Shown here piece by piece: positions 35,252 through 46,655 of a DNA stretch of 49,534 nucleotides. Numbering within the stretch: the stretch's first letter is position 1; each line of letters opens with the position of its first letter. Both the position numbers and the translations under genes were made by a program. The notes beneath the pieces were generated by a model. The model made no database searches. It saw only the letters and a program-made list of their open reading frames with translations, and was not told where the DNA came from. Origin of the DNA: Nitrospinota bacterium (GTDB lineage Bacteria; Nitrospinota; Nitrospinia; Nitrospinales; VA-1); contig WAHY01000002.1 in NCBI GenBank assembly GCA_009873635.1, forward strand, positions 148,530 through 198,063, in the 5' to 3' direction.

Positions 35252-37405
35252 CTATTTATCTGCCAACCCCTTTTTAGCGAGCTTTTCGTATTCATCTTGA
35301 AGCTCGTTTTCTAAATGTTTTACCTGCCCAACCAGCTCGTGAGTTCTGATATCAATTTCTTTTAAATGATTTGTAAGCTCTTGCAGGTCCTTGTCTGGAG
35401 TGTCTTTGAGGAAAGCCATACTTCGTTTGGCGTGTTGGGATATATGTTCAATAAGGTCGTGGATTGAGTTGATATTTAATTGTAGTTGAGAGGTTTCCTC
35501 CTTTAAATGAGAGGAATCAGCCTCAGCTTGAAATACGAAAGTGTAAATCAGCGCAAACACAAAAGCTCCAAACAGTATTCCCTGGCCAATGAATGTTTCC
35601 CAGGTTGGATACATGCCAAGCCATGAAATTGATGGCAAAAAGTTAGCCGCTGTCATTGAAATTTGTTCGCCCATTTGCAACTCATGGAGACCTCGCCCCA
35701 TGAATGTGAACGCCATGTAATACAAAAGCACACTGGTAAATCCAAAAAACCATTTAATAGGAATTCTCATGCCCAATGTATTGATTAAATAAAAGACAAT
35801 ACCTAAAACAGCACATCCACCCAAAAATCCAGGTATTATTCCGCCTGTTTCATCACCTGCGTATAAAAACAGAGCTTTATAAAAAAGTACCGTCTCAAAC
35901 CCTTCCCGATAAACTGAAATGAATGCCACCGCACCCAGGGTGAAAGTATTGCCCTTTGACAAAGCACCAACCATTTTCTTATTTATATAACTCTGCCATT
36001 TTTTGTTTTCGATTTTTGAGACCAGCCAATAACTGACCCAGAATAAAACCACAACAGCGATTAACATTATCCAGCCTTCCAGCAGTTCCTGGTTAGCCAT
36101 GCTCAAATGGAGGACTTCATGGACGATATAAGCGGTGGCAAAACTTGCAAGAATACCCGCAATCACCCCAATGTAAATGGATTTAACACGCGCCTGATTG
36201 CGGGATTTAACTAAAAAGGCAATTAATGCGGCAATAATGAGGATAGCTTCAAACCCTTCTCTAACAATGATGGAGAAAGACTGAAAAAACATACCTGTAA
36301 AACCGACTTTACTTTTAAGTAATTCTAAACCCTTTGCCAGATCGAGATTGATTTCTTTGTGTAGTGATTCAACATCTTTAAGTGGAGCATTTCGCTTTAT
36401 TTCTGCCCGGAATCTACTGAAGGCCGATTCCAAATTGATACCCAGATCCTTGTCCTTGGTAATAAGGTTGGATTCAATTTTTTCATATATCAGATAGGCA
36501 TCAAAAGCCATCTCTGCGGCATCTTCCACCTGGCCGGATTTATACATCTTCAAACTATTTTCGAGAAGACCACGCACTTCACTGATCACCTGGTCGGCCG
36601 CTCCAGATTCAGAATCTCCCGCTGATTCCATCGCCTCGAGTTCAATATTAACAGGCGGGAGTGTTAAATTATCATTAGAAAAAGTTCTGATGTAGTAGGT
36701 AACATCCCAGATCTCAGTCTCTGACAGCGCACCGGACCAGGCCATCATTGCGGTGTTGGCAATTCCTACATTAATGACCTCAAAATTGTCGTATGCGGTT
36801 GTGTTGGCGTCTCCGGTAAGCTTAGGATCGGATAAAACAGCAGGGGGTGGATCAAACTGGCTTGCCATAGGGCCATCTCCGTTTCCCTTGACTCCATGAC
36901 AAACTGAACAATTTGACTCAAATATTTTTTTACCGTTTCCCAATGAAACAGGGGAAACAGGCATTTTATTGATATTGATATTAAATGTTGCCAGTAAATC
37001 AGAGTTAATATTATTGACTTCTTTCCAAACTAACTGCGAATCCACCTTATCTTTGACCATAGTCGCCATTGAGGTGAAACGATTTTTTAGATCTTCTTTT
37101 TTTGGGGGATCTTTTATTTCAGAGGAAACTCTTTCAAACCTTTCAATTGCCTGTTGTAAAAATACCTGGCTTTCTTCATATTCCGGTGGCACTACAATTT
37201 GGCCATCCACCACACCTTCTTCAAATTCTTTGGCCGCAATGTTTAACATCATGACAATTTTTTTCACTCTATCTATTGTCTGCTCGTTTGCAGCCTCAGC
37301 ATGGTCCAATAAATAAATAGACTGGCTAAAAAAAAGTGACCAAATTATGAATATTTTAAAAAAAACAGACCTCAGGATCTGTGAGTTTTGTTTTTTAAAC
37401 AGCAT
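35252..37405 (-). CDS. Cytochrome c / FTR1-family iron permease fusion
   Basis: 717 aa from the ATG at 37405, with AAGGA 7 nt upstream; a TTG five codons earlier is less likely. Signal anchor about 10-35, a helical region, then a class I cytochrome c domain (haem motif CSVCH at 166-170, distal Met candidate in [10 protein letters not shown]). A second helical segment leads to seven-helix FTR1 permease motifs REGFE at 382-386 and 500-504, which bind iron. C-terminal coiled coil about 640-715. The haem domain would oxidise ferrous iron for import. A Fur-type operator lies at its promoter. Confidence 0.92.
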
Positions 37406-37475
37406 GTGGTAATCCTTCAAAGTATTATTGAGCTATTATAAGGAGGATTTATGGACGGAAGACTTTGATTTAAAT

Positions 37476-42708: not shown

Positions 42709-43290
42709 ATGCCAAAAATTAAAGTCAGGACTAAAGACCAAAAAGTTTACGAAAAGCTCGTAAAGGCCTATGAAAAAACCGTCATTATTCAAAAACAAAA
42801 AAGGTTGACTTATGGTCGCTGGGATTTTGTTGTTTTTGGACAAACTGAGAATAAAGAAACGATACTTCGTGAAGGCTATGCAGAGCAGGCTTCCATAAAA
42901 AGAGTCCCTATTTATATTGCTTCATTAGCTCAACCGGGGCTCACCAACGTGAATGGAATCCCAATAGAGGAGTTTGTAGAAGAAGACATTCCAAATCAAT
43001 ATCAGGGGTTGGAAATTATAAATATTGATCCTCTTCGTCCACTAACGATCATAAAGAAAGACACTCTGCCAGGAACAACTCGGATGTCAGATCAAATTTG
43101 TAAAGATTACGAGGATGAAAACATTGCCGTCATTGAGTCTCCAAATGAGTCGGACTGGATGATTGCTGTGATGAAATATCTCAGTGAATGTGACCGAGTA
43201 TTCCCGGATGCTGTTCAGGAAGCTTTTTCTCGTAATGTGGCGCTTCATCAAGATTTCTTGTCTTTGGAAAAACCCAGCCAATTAAACTGA
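42709..43290 (+). CDS. Hypothetical protein, 193 aa
   Basis: Not recognised. Soluble, mixed alpha/beta, with a basic N-terminus (MPKIKVRTKDQKVYEKLVKA), a central RVPIYIASLAQPGLTNVNGI strand region and an acidic C-terminal helix. A single-gene unit: own extended -10 promoter, divergent from murJ and convergent with the GNAT gene. Codon use looks like the neighbours. Coding status is well supported by length and absence of competing frames. Confidence 0.75.
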   Translation: MPKIKVRTKDQKVYEKLVKAYEKTVIIQKQKRLTYGRWDFVVFGQTENKETILREGYAEQASIKRVPIYIASLAQPGLTNVNGIPIEEFVEEDIPNQYQGLEIINIDPLRPLTIIKKDTLPGTTRMSDQICKDYEDENIAVIESPNESDWMIAVMKYLSECDRVFPDAVQEAFSRNVALHQDFLSLEKPSQLN

Positions 43291-43307: not shown

Positions 43308-43763
43308 TCAATCAAAACCTTCTTTTTCAAAAACAATATAACCGGAGTCTTTCATTCCCAGGCTCTTGTATGTGCTCTGACCTGTATTATTATCATGCAT
43401 GACATATAAGCGCAGTGCTTTAACCTGCCGATGGCCTTTCGCAAGTTCTTCAACATGCCTGAATAAAGTCCTGAATACTCCCTGTTTACGAAATTCCGGG
43501 ACAACATATACACTTTGCATCCACCAGATCAGTCCATTGCGCCAGTCGCTCCATTCATAAGTTATCATCATTTGTCCCACCACTTTCCCGGCAAGCTCAG
43601 CAACAAAATAATGACATTCTTCTCTTTCCAAGGCTTTCAATACACCTTTTCTCAATATTTCTCCGTCTAACTGTAAAGCCTCTGTTTCTTTCGCTAAACA
43701 CAGGTTGTTTTGCACCAATATCGGCAAATCATTTTCCTGGGCTTCGCGAACATATATCGGCAT
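43308..43763 (-). CDS. GNAT-family N-acetyltransferase
   Basis: 151 aa, a single GNAT domain. Motif A is VYVVPEFRKQGVFRTLFRHVEELA with the acetyl-CoA loop RKQGVF, followed by LYVMHDNNTGQSTYKSLGM, the typical motif B. N-terminal IYVREAQENDLPILVQNNL is the usual first strand-helix. Starts 5 nt after the stop of the large protein upstream, so it is the third gene of the MoxR operon and probably translationally coupled. Substrate unknown. Confidence 0.88.
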   Translation of the reverse strand: MPIYVREAQENDLPILVQNNLCLAKETEALQLDGEILRKGVLKALEREECHYFVAELAGKVVGQMMITYEWSDWRNGLIWWMQSVYVVPEFRKQGVFRTLFRHVEELAKGHRQVKALRLYVMHDNNTGQSTYKSLGMKDSGYIVFEKEGFD

Positions 43764-43768
43764 TTAAT

Positions 43769-45601
43769 TTACAGGTCCTGGATAAATCGTTGTGCATAGG
43801 AACGGATATTCTTCCCGTTCAGTACATGGAATCGCCTTACTTTCTCTATGGTCTGATTTGAAAAACGTTTTAAAGGAATATGAATTATTTTTTTGCCATA
43901 TTTTTTAGCAAGTCTTCTCCATGTCAGTCGTGGTGCGCAGGGAGAGACGACAGTGATATGAGTTTCCCGGGAGTGAAAAAAAGAAGCTTCAAGCAGTCTT
44001 TCTTCCAGGGTTTCGGAGAACTGTATGCGTGGGTCTCTCCAGATATCAGGAATAGGGCGGGGTGGATAGATCATCATACACCCACCATAAGTGGCTTGGC
44101 CAATACCCGGTCCAACCAAATTATTCATATACTCAGTGGAAAAAAAACATAATGTAGATTCCTCATCATGCTCAGCGTACCAGGTTTGGCACCAGCTATA
44201 ATTTTTGGGCTCGGGATCCGGGTCGAATATAAATACAATAATTTCAACCTGCCCCCTTGAGGGAGGCACTTCTTTGACATATATGTCTCCCGTATACCAA
44301 TGTCTAAGTGTATCCCTGATATCTATACCGTCTTTTACAGATGAGGTGAATTTTTCTGTACGTGCCAGATCATGGCTCAAAAGTAGTTTGGTTTGTTCGC
44401 GCACATGTGTATTCAAATTTTCAATTTTTTCATCTTCGGGCGGCCAGGAACATTGTCCATGAGGGTCCCAGTGATGCTGCCACTTTTCCTGGGTATGTAT
44501 GTCGGGCTCTGGTTTTAAATTCAGCGTTCTCCACTCGAGATGAGTTTCTGACAAACGATTTTTCATGGAGACCGGTTTTGCACCTTCCTCATCAGGCAAA
44601 GCCTGATCAATGCCAAGTGAAAGCGTATCAGGTAATTTGTCAGCAGGAGCGAACGGGTATTCTCGTGCGGCTTCTAAAACTGCGATGGCAAAAGGGTCTC
44701 CGCCAAACTGTTTGGCGGAATTAACGAGAGTATAGAGGTCTGGAAGAAGACGGGACTCCATTAAAGTAAGATTGCGAATGTATTGCAATAATATCTGGAA
44801 AGTTTGCGAAGTCAGATTGTGATAACGAATCTTGTGCTTTTTAATAAATAATTCACGTGCTCGGAGGAGTATTTCCTTAACTCCGTCAATTGGGGCATTA
44901 TTATCAGGACGCAAATCTTGACGTTTTTTTTCATATAAATAAGTGACATAGGGCAATTCTGTTAATGCAAAAAACAAGGTTTGTTTTTCAACTCCATATA
45001 ATATTGGCAAGCCATCAGCTTTTTTAGGAGGGCTGACTTCCATCCTTTCATCATAGGCTTCTTTAATCCAAGGCCAATCCAGAATGGAACATATGCAAAC
45101 TATGTTTGTATATTCCATCTCTAATTGATGAAGCTGGTAGGCCATCCATCTGGCTCTCCAAAAGTGCTGGCTCTTATCTTTGGGCCTTTTTTGGGTTAGA
45201 AGAAGCACACTGACTAATTTTTCATAAGACATCTTGCTCAAAGCAAAGCTGTCAGGAAAATCTATGCTTCTTTTTTCATAGCTTTCAGTACTCCAGTCAA
45301 TGAAATGTCGTGGTATTCCCTCTTGCAGGGCAATGCGTAATCCCATGATTAACGGCTGACTGGGATCAATAGGGACGTAATTCATTGCACCGTCCTTCTC
45401 AACTTGACAACTCAGTGAAATACCTGGAAATATTTTGATGCCTTCTTCTACTGTTTGTTTGAATTCAGGAGGAAGTGCGACCGCAAGGCAATTATAGGCA
45501 TTGGATAATAGTCGATGACGTATCTCTCTTGCAAAACTTCCACTTCCATGCACCACAGGCAAAAAGCTGATGCGAGAGCTGAGCTTGAGAATTTGACTCA
45601 T
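43769..45601 (-). CDS. Large TraB/ChaN/EreA-like protein of a MoxR operon
   Basis: 610 aa, soluble. Residues 11-185 resemble the TraB/ChaN/EreA-like fold of DUF5682-type proteins: 'LPVVHGSGSFAREIRHRLL', 'PLIMGLRIALQEGIPRHFID', 'RARWMAYQLHQLE...IVCICSILDW'; the expected late His of that fold is missing. A helical middle (240-320) leads to a distinct C-terminal domain (about 375-610) with WDPHGQCSWPPEDE (378-391), 'DGIDIRDTLRHWYTGDIYV', 'SWCQTWYAEHDEES' and 'GPGIGQATYGGCMMIYPPRP'. Dense Trp/His/Asp suggests a catalytic or metal site. Directly downstream of a MoxR ATPase. Function unknown. Confidence 0.8.
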   Translation of the reverse strand: MSQILKLSSRISFLPVVHGSGSFAREIRHRLLSNAYNCLAVALPPEFKQTVEEGIKIFPGISLSCQVEKDGAMNYVPIDPSQPLIMGLRIALQEGIPRHFIDWSTESYEKRSIDFPDSFALSKMSYEKLVSVLLLTQKRPKDKSQHFWRARWMAYQLHQLEMEYTNIVCICSILDWPWIKEAYDERMEVSPPKKADGLPILYGVEKQTLFFALTELPYVTYLYEKKRQDLRPDNNAPIDGVKEILLRARELFIKKHKIRYHNLTSQTFQILLQYIRNLTLMESRLLPDLYTLVNSAKQFGGDPFAIAVLEAAREYPFAPADKLPDTLSLGIDQALPDEEGAKPVSMKNRLSETHLEWRTLNLKPEPDIHTQEKWQHHWDPHGQCSWPPEDEKIENLNTHVREQTKLLLSHDLARTEKFTSSVKDGIDIRDTLRHWYTGDIYVKEVPPSRGQVEIIVFIFDPDPEPKNYSWCQTWYAEHDEESTLCFFSTEYMNNLVGPGIGQATYGGCMMIYPPRPIPDIWRDPRIQFSETLEERLLEASFFHSRETHITVVSPCAPRLTWRRLAKKYGKKIIHIPLKRFSNQTIEKVRRFHVLNGKNIRSYAQRFIQDL

Positions 45602-45613
45602 TAGTTTGTAAAC

Positions 45614-46561
45614 CTATTGATCGCTGTCGGGATGCAATGGGCTGTCATCATTGAAAAAGAAATCTCCCAGTCCCATGGGCAGTCTTTCATCTCCCAAAGC
45701 TCTTTTATTCCTGGCAGCAAGAGCATCCAGGTCAAGTGCTTCTTCACCAAGTACTTTACTGACTGCTTCTTTCCATAATTCATCCTTGGCTAAAGGGCTT
45801 TCTTTATTTTGACTGATGCGTTTCAAGGCATATTGGAGAATGTGGATGCCATCACGCGGCGAAAAATCCAGTTCCAACTGGTGAGATTTCTGCAGGAAGT
45901 CCGTTGTCATTTTCAGAAGTTCTTCCTCTGAAAATGGAAGATGATATCTAAGTATGTCCAACTCATCCTGATAGCTAGGCATCGTCATTTGCAAGGTGGG
46001 TTGCAGGCGGGAAAGGATATAATCTGGTATCTCAAATGTTGACTCATCGTTATTCATTGTTACACATGCACGGAACTCTCTATGAGCGTGAATCTGAATT
46101 CCAGCAATAATGGACTCTACATAACGTCGGTGGTCAAGAAGGGGGGCAAGCGATGCCCAGCTTTTTTCATTCATACGATTGCCTTCATCAAGAATACATA
46201 TCCCACCTTCGATCATGGCACACACCAGGGGAGAAGCATGGTAGGAAATTTTTCCATGCTCCGACAAAACAGGAGTTATTAACAGATCCTCGGGGCGCGT
46301 GTCGCTAGTACATTGAAATATATACAGGGGCTGTTTTCTTTGATTTGCAGCAACCATTGCCAGGGTTGTTTTCCCGGTTCCAGGCATACCTGTAATTCTT
46401 GGAGAGAGAGGAAAATCTTTTTCTGAAACAACCATCCAGCAGGCCTCAATTTGTTTTAGGACTTCATCCTGTCCAATCCATTCAGGGCGGGTCGAGTCGG
46501 GCTTGCTCAAATGTAAAGTAACACCATCAATTTCTATGGATTTTTTTGTAGTCGTTTTCAA
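45614..46561 (-). CDS. MoxR-type AAA+ ATPase
   Basis: 315 aa from a TTG start supported by AAGGATC 5 nt upstream. Walker A GMPGTGKT (58-65), Walker B ICILDE (121-126), sensor 1 N170 in CVTMNN, arginine finger R185 in YILSRL, then a C-terminal lid. MoxR ATPases act as chaperones that activate or assemble partner proteins, often with VWA partners; here no VWA gene is present and the partner is evidently the large protein 12 nt downstream. Confidence 0.9.
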
Positions 46562-46625
46562 TGTTTGATCCTTAACGATAGATTTTTCAAAGAATCAACA
46601 CAGGCAAATTGTGTTGGGCAACATC

Positions 46626-46655
46626 AGGATACTTATGCTTTAGTCCCACTGTCAA
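46626..46655 (-). promoter_or_regulatory. Promoter of the MoxR operon
   Basis: Minus strand TTGACA (46650-46655, perfect), 18 nt, TATCCT (46626-46631, 4 of 6), about 65 nt before the TTG start. Confidence 0.5.

Follow-up and report, generated by a model that had tools for sequence, protein, structure and literature searches.

MoxR-type AAA+ ATPases usually have von Willebrand factor A (vWA) proteins as partners and serve in the maturation of metal enzymes or large complexes. In the NorQD pair, the vWA domain of NorD inserts a finger into the pore of NorQ, and a linker in NorD is twisted by ATP hydrolysis so that metal passes into the target (PMC13036017), which provides a precedent for a remodelling pair (PMC13036017, PMC9976466). 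Kaur et al. 2020 (PMC7159879) attribute a role in biological conflict to one class of MoxR systems. In Escherichia coli, YehM, a protein of the family DUF5682, is also encoded after a MoxR gene, in the order yehL-yehM-yehP-yehQ. Here we analyse a 49,534-nt stretch of the Nitrospinota contig WAHY01000002.1 (the window), in which a MoxR gene (45614-46561, minus strand, 315 aa, TTG start) is followed by an open reading frame (ORF) for a 610-aa protein without family annotation (43769-45601, minus strand), given the working name BIG. MoxR and BIG are obligate partners, kept or lost together across at least five bacterial phyla. Because this holds even where the two lie far from each other on the chromosome, they are very probably parts of a single housekeeping machine, so far unexplained.

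A scan of GTDB genomes with a BIG profile gave 181 relatives, the best 80 of which were kept for a survey of loci. In 70 of these 80 independently fetched loci BIG is preceded by a MoxR orthologue, with a spacing of at most 220 nt in all but one, a Gemmatimonadota locus (L124:7009-8000) that is among the few with an intervening gene, here an ORF of about 285 aa. Seven of the remaining ten loci start at contig ends or hold an assembly gap, and in the other three (L099, L100 and L113) MoxR is found elsewhere in the genome. The two genes also adjoin in a divergent planctomycete clade and on a Neochlamydia plasmid, where MoxR lies 5-6 nt upstream of BIG.

Co-occurrence extends the association beyond linkage. 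Among the 31 Nitrospinota genomes that are at least 90% complete, 26 carry both genes, five (G001, G002, G023, G028 and G031) carry neither and none is discordant. Across all 77 Nitrospinota genomes, 52 have both and 20 have neither; the four with BIG only reflect incomplete genes or contig edges, and the single genome with MoxR only is 81% complete. MoxR is present in 15 of 15 genomes of other groups. Each of the 22 BIG-carrying Planctomycetota genomes has exactly one MoxR orthologue (62-68% identity), with the two genes unlinked in nearly all of them, and none of 37 genomes without BIG, drawn from three groups, carries a MoxR orthologue even at E ≤ 1e-15. A 38th genome (G230), which holds only an isolated N-domain-like ORF, was counted apart and also lacks MoxR. 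An earlier note on this DNA, made from the sequence alone, had taken the large protein to be MoxR's dedicated partner, and both the linkage and the co-occurrence of unlinked genes support this. The same note had taken homologues lacking a MoxR neighbour as evidence to the contrary. Such homologues do exist (L099, L100, L113 and most sampled main-clade Planctomycetota), yet a MoxR orthologue is encoded elsewhere in the same genome; MoxR is thus retained even when unlinked, and the partnership is strengthened rather than refuted.

The gene layout of the window agrees with that described in the note: three ORFs on the minus strand, with gaps of 12 nt between MoxR and BIG and of 5 nt between BIG and a GNAT acetyltransferase gene. 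The full-length identity of BIG across Nitrospinota (53-88%) and the near-absence of copies with internal stops establish that these are genuine genes rather than chance frames. The promoter claimed upstream fared less well: a TTGACA box is indeed present (46655-46626, 18-nt spacer, TATCCT), yet the region holds 12 promoter-like sites against 8.5 ± 3.0 expected by chance, which is no excess. The ATP sites of MoxR are intact, as the note had stated, with Walker A, Walker B (CILDE) and sensor 1 (MNND) near-invariant among orthologues, and the protein matches Pfam AAA_5 (E 1.7e-17) and AAA_3 (E 1.2e-6) above their cut-offs. Among solved single-domain proteins CbbQ and NorQ are the closest to it; its match to GvpN is weak, and a place on the CbbQ/GvpN/NorQ branch is tentative. 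BLASTP found no similarity to YehL. The C-terminal tail (45617-45673, minus strand), of an FFF type seen in 82 of 83 main-clade orthologues and in most divergent-clade members either degenerate or missing, is a candidate docking tail.

BIG itself consists of an N-domain, a helical middle region and a C-domain, all features of which lie on the minus strand. An AlphaFold2 model built with 44 sequences has a mean predicted local distance difference test score (pLDDT) of 82.7, rising to about 90 in the N-domain (residues 1-205, 44987-45601). A Foldseek search of the whole model against the PDB gave no significant match; the N-domain, searched against BFVD, matched a viral TraB protein with probability 1.00 (E 1.3e-3). 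The TraB/ChaN-like assignment proposed earlier is therefore upheld by this fold match and, through profile-profile comparison, refined: the N-domain is a distant DUF5682 domain of TraB/ChaN fold. Its motif HGSG...LPPEF resembles RHHxPG...IEGPxxF of DUF5682. Since hhalign against the single YehM sequence was marginal (and BLASTP found nothing), we used a profile of 14 DUF5682 proteins, against which the BIG profile aligned over BIG residues 7-300 with a probability of 92 (E 6.7e-7). The first 120 residues alone reached E 2.7e-8, and leaving out the Neochlamydia member gave E 5e-6. The score of 64.7 compares with at most 32.4 in 60 column-shuffled controls. Pfam ranks DUF5682 (PF18934) first for the Neochlamydia BIG, at E 0.028 and 13.2 bits against a gathering cut-off of 26 bits. 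The window's BIG has no PF18934 match at E ≤ 10 and none to PF01963 (TraB), and its C-terminal part (residues 330-610 or 436-610) gave no significant alignment to the DUF5682 profile. A search with PF01963, intended to close the gap to TraB, was dropped for want of loci.

The DUF5682 signature combines a His with a Glu on the second strand of the N-domain. The His is present in the window (H18). The Glu is found in 15 of 95 BIG homologues, namely a planctomycete clade, one Nitrospirota genome and Neochlamydia (for example VAVELPPSL). In the other 80 it is replaced by Ala, Pro, Cys, Ser or Gly; the window, with Ala42, reads VALPPEF. On the tree the difference maps to one change, on the branch leading to the window's clade, with a Shimodaira-Hasegawa approximate likelihood ratio (SH-aLRT) support of 100. 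As the related family DUF5682 carries the Glu, the change is most naturally read as a loss, not a gain, and the signature Glu was lost once, on that branch. A 1257-aa DUF5682 protein of a Streptomyces plasmid (L156:2447-6220) has VELP in place of the usual IEGP, as the Glu-bearing BIG clade does at that point.

The middle region (residues 206-445, 44267-44986), modelled with low confidence at residues 413-428 and 438-448, carries the motif CSWPPED (residues 384-390, 44432-44452), mostly invariant in the 95 homologues. The HWDPHGQC motif named in the earlier note is genuine, with W374, C384, S385, P388, E389 and D390 invariant or nearly so. The C-domain (residues 446-610, 43772-44266) is the most conserved part of the protein. 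Modelled alone, it folds independently as an alpha/beta domain with a predicted template modelling score (pTM) of 0.78; together with the alignment, this bears out the idea of a separate, strongly conserved C-terminal domain. A Foldseek search with the C-domain alone against the PDB gave nothing significant (best E 0.02). Many of the weak matches in these searches are to proteins with an RNase H-like fold (Argonaute PIWI, uS11, integrase), at E ≥ 0.02 and template modelling scores of about 0.2-0.3, and the strand order is similar to that of RNase H. As none of this is significant, we claim no fold. Neither by sequence nor by fold did the domain match a characterized housekeeping enzyme, the kind of match that the note had named as counting against its view. 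Within the EHxxES motif (residues 477-482, 44156-44173), a candidate active or metal site, E477, E481 and S482 occur in 95 of 95 homologues and H478 in 89; H592 occurs in 94. The invariant core T-W-x-x-E-H-x-x-E-S / R-x-F-H-x-L-N is likely to be the working site of BIG. Because the Glu has been lost while the C-domain residues are invariant, we infer that in the window's clade the N-domain probably has no catalytic role and serves in recognition or as a scaffold, and that the essential function would lie in the C-domain.

BIG occurs in 56 of 77 Nitrospinota genomes, including 26 of the 31 that are at least 90% complete. The best 80 of the 181 relatives, mostly full length and 45-89% identical to the window's protein, come from Nitrospinota, Nitrospirota (including Nitrospira defluvii), Latescibacterota, Gemmatimonadota, Handelsmanbacteria and Planctomycetota. 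These relatives also mark the window's genome as a Nitrospina-like one. Outside Nitrospinota the presence of BIG is patchy at the scale of phyla: in sampled genomes, 35 of 196 in the phylum of N. defluvii, 10 of 42 in the group of a Gemmatimonadota-labelled genome and 46 of 292 in that of a Planctomycetota-labelled genome, the last count including far more divergent members. A divergent MoxR-BIG pair lies on plasmid pS13 of Neochlamydia sp. S13 (L153:9093-11806), with 29% identity in BIG and the N-domain Glu retained; the host of this plasmid is an amoeba symbiont. Single-sequence searches of BIG found nothing significant in Pfam and NCBIfam (best Ribonuclease_T2, E 0.06) or in PADLOC and the PDB, no homologue was found among the viral contigs searched, and the one match of the BIG profile to PDB sequences (E 0.9) was judged to be chance. 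Partial copies were also seen. An isolated 205-aa ORF in G230, a Nitrospirota-group genome (L178:6798-7415), matches the N-domain only (profile positions 13-145) and is possibly a stand-alone relative of it. Short, degenerate C-terminal fragments with internal stops (L055, G027:C56:164087-164263, downstream of an intact gene; and G025:C438:4054-4257) are probable remnants of duplications. In another genome (L060, G074:C5:4426-5296) the BIG frame is broken into two pieces by an in-frame stop, with a MoxR orthologue kept on a different contig, possibly a recent pseudogene or an assembly error.

We favour the explanation that MoxR and BIG constitute a two-component, vWA-independent AAA+ remodelling system with BIG as dedicated adaptor or client, and would give it about an even chance of being correct. 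A MoxR hexamer would spend ATP to remodel BIG, or to act through it, as NorQ does via NorD and CbbQ via CbbO; by analogy with these pairs, BIG is proposed to be a vWA-free equivalent of NorD on which the MoxR ring acts and by which it would be remodelled. BIG would have arisen by fusion of a DUF5682-like TraB/ChaN-fold domain to a new C-terminal domain, and the pair would serve a conserved cellular role, in maturation or quality control, rather than defence. Several points weigh against this explanation. To our knowledge, every well-studied relative of this MoxR works with a vWA partner, and this pair has none. A physical MoxR-BIG complex is putative; the distance matrices of the 95 MoxR-BIG pairs are correlated at r = 0.95, in part through shared species history; and the remote homology of the N-domain depends on profile scores and a single weak fold match, with the catalytic role of the Glu in DUF5682 itself putative. 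The EHxxES core could be catalytic, which would make BIG an enzyme client rather than an adaptor. Finally, when the genes around unlinked copies of BIG and MoxR were clustered, no third gene proved constant. The frequent clusters that did appear around them were rejected as partners, being overlapping frames of BIG and MoxR themselves, as was a seemingly common downstream gene in 28 loci, which is ligA in Nitrospira, chained to an amidohydrolase elsewhere.

The last two points lead to the main rival, in which BIG is itself an enzyme, for instance a metal-dependent one with E477, H478, E481 and H592 as ligands, and MoxR would be its activase or metal-insertion chaperone with no further target. 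The near-complete invariance of E477, E481, S482 and H592, the strong conservation of the C-domain as a whole and the lack of a third gene constant beside the pair speak for such an enzyme, which nevertheless matches no known enzyme in fold or sequence; we regard this as possible, if rather unlikely, and prefer an adaptor that passes force to a third protein. The earlier note had mentioned NTP-dependent conflict systems; on such a reading BIG would be the effector or sensor of an anti-phage system like the MoxR-vWA ternary systems. The presence of MoxR, the DUF5682-like domain, the plasmid copy in Neochlamydia and the published assignment of a MoxR class to conflict all fit that idea. Conflict systems are recognized by a variable architecture, highly variable sequences, and lateral transfer together with a patchy distribution in closely related organisms (PMC7159879), whereas BIG keeps a constant architecture of about 610-650 aa with a mean column identity of 60% over 44 members from several phyla, evolves about as slowly as murJ in the same loci, is near-universal in Nitrospinota and yields a tree that mostly follows phyla. 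Housekeeping genes, among them ligA, murJ, amidohydrolase and FBPase, lie near it; the surveyed loci showed no defence context, and PADLOC has no match for BIG and only weak P-loop matches for MoxR. The surveyed neighbourhoods contain no vWA gene, and BIG itself has neither a vWA match in Pfam nor a DxSxS motif, with a predicted order of strands and helices in the C-domain unlike that of vWA. With no vWA, third component, effector diversity or viral homologue, a conflict system is improbable.

The pair could also be a reduced form of the MoxR-DUF5682-vWA-SWIM system of E. coli (yehL-yehM-yehP-yehQ), with the vWA and SWIM genes located elsewhere, in keeping with the homologous N-domain and the shared order of MoxR, then partner. 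Yet the C-terminal halves cannot be aligned, the two MoxR proteins share no BLASTP similarity, PF18934 is absent from five BIG-carrying genomes, and in most Nitrospinota genomes lacking the pair vWA genes occur about as often as in those that have it, while in the window's genome they lie more than 100 kb from it, so that we think this reduction improbable too. Least probable of all is a reading in which the three genes form one operon, as in the earlier note, and the acetyltransferase ACETYLTRANSFERASE (43308-43763, minus strand, 151 aa; Pfam PF00583, E 2e-14, above cut-off) would modify BIG or its target. The 5-nt gap and shared strand in the window and close relatives suggested it, but the gene adjoins BIG only in part of Nitrospinaceae, lies 2-4 kb away in L051, L053 and L056, stands beside murJ instead of BIG in L039 and is absent beside most BIG homologues. 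It is a mere neighbour outside the MoxR-BIG unit, lineage-specific as the note had supposed. Between BIG and the acetyltransferase in one locus (L051:4025-5983) are seemingly broken opposite-strand ORFs, partly membrane-protein-like. Elsewhere in the window, 42709-43290 (plus strand) encodes a conserved 193-aa protein with no Pfam or NCBIfam match that stands beside murJ in many Nitrospinaceae (54-85% identity), and 35252-37420 (minus strand) a 722-aa protein that, read by eye, seems to combine a cytochrome c-like CxxCH segment with an FTR1-type iron permease domain.

If the two-component remodelling reading is right, the pair may represent an undescribed AAA+ class in at least five phyla: a vWA-free MoxR acting via a partner in which a degenerate TraB/ChaN-like domain is joined to a new C-terminal one. 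Nitrospina, Nitrospira and their relatives would require such a machine for a core process. We put this forward tentatively, somewhat short of an even chance. That the two genes are so strictly co-inherited across phyla, linked or not, and yet have no vWA partner points to a so far unrecognised core process of planctomycetes and of major nitrite oxidisers. A literature search linking MoxR with Nitrospira or Nitrospina found nothing useful, and no functional study of DUF5682, YehL or YehM was found in the open literature. EHxxES, CSWPPED, the lost Glu and the MoxR FFF tail, together with the divergent Glu-bearing clade, offer residues with which to test the pair. DUF5682, to which YehM of unknown function belongs, is now linked to a slowly evolving, housekeeping-like branch.

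Compared with known systems, MoxR-BIG resembles the MoxR-vWA ternary conflict systems (PMC7159879) in placing MoxR beside a large protein of unknown function, and differs in its lack of a vWA protein, third component and effector diversity, its slow evolution and its housekeeping context. With TraB/PrgY/GumN and ChaN proteins BIG shares the fold of its N-domain, as seen in the viral TraB match; it lacks a PF01963 match, is without the Glu in the window's clade and has 400 extra residues. In the DUF5682 (PF18934)/YehM operons, too, the gene right behind MoxR encodes a protein whose N-terminal domain is homologous to that of BIG (about residues 7-120, with weak collinearity up to 300). Unlike them, BIG falls below the Pfam cut-off, has a C-terminal half that cannot be aligned, lacks in the window's clade the Glu of the His-Glu signature (HH/HG ... 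IEGP/VELP) and has no vWA, SWIM or DUF4132/DUF5691 neighbour, and its MoxR is unlike YehL by BLASTP. Against the MoxR-vWA pairs NorQ-NorD and CbbQ-CbbO, BIG stands apart in having no recognizable vWA domain or metal-ion-dependent adhesion site (MIDAS) and no cNOR or rubisco gene seen nearby; what it has in common with them is a related MoxR and a single dedicated partner gene.

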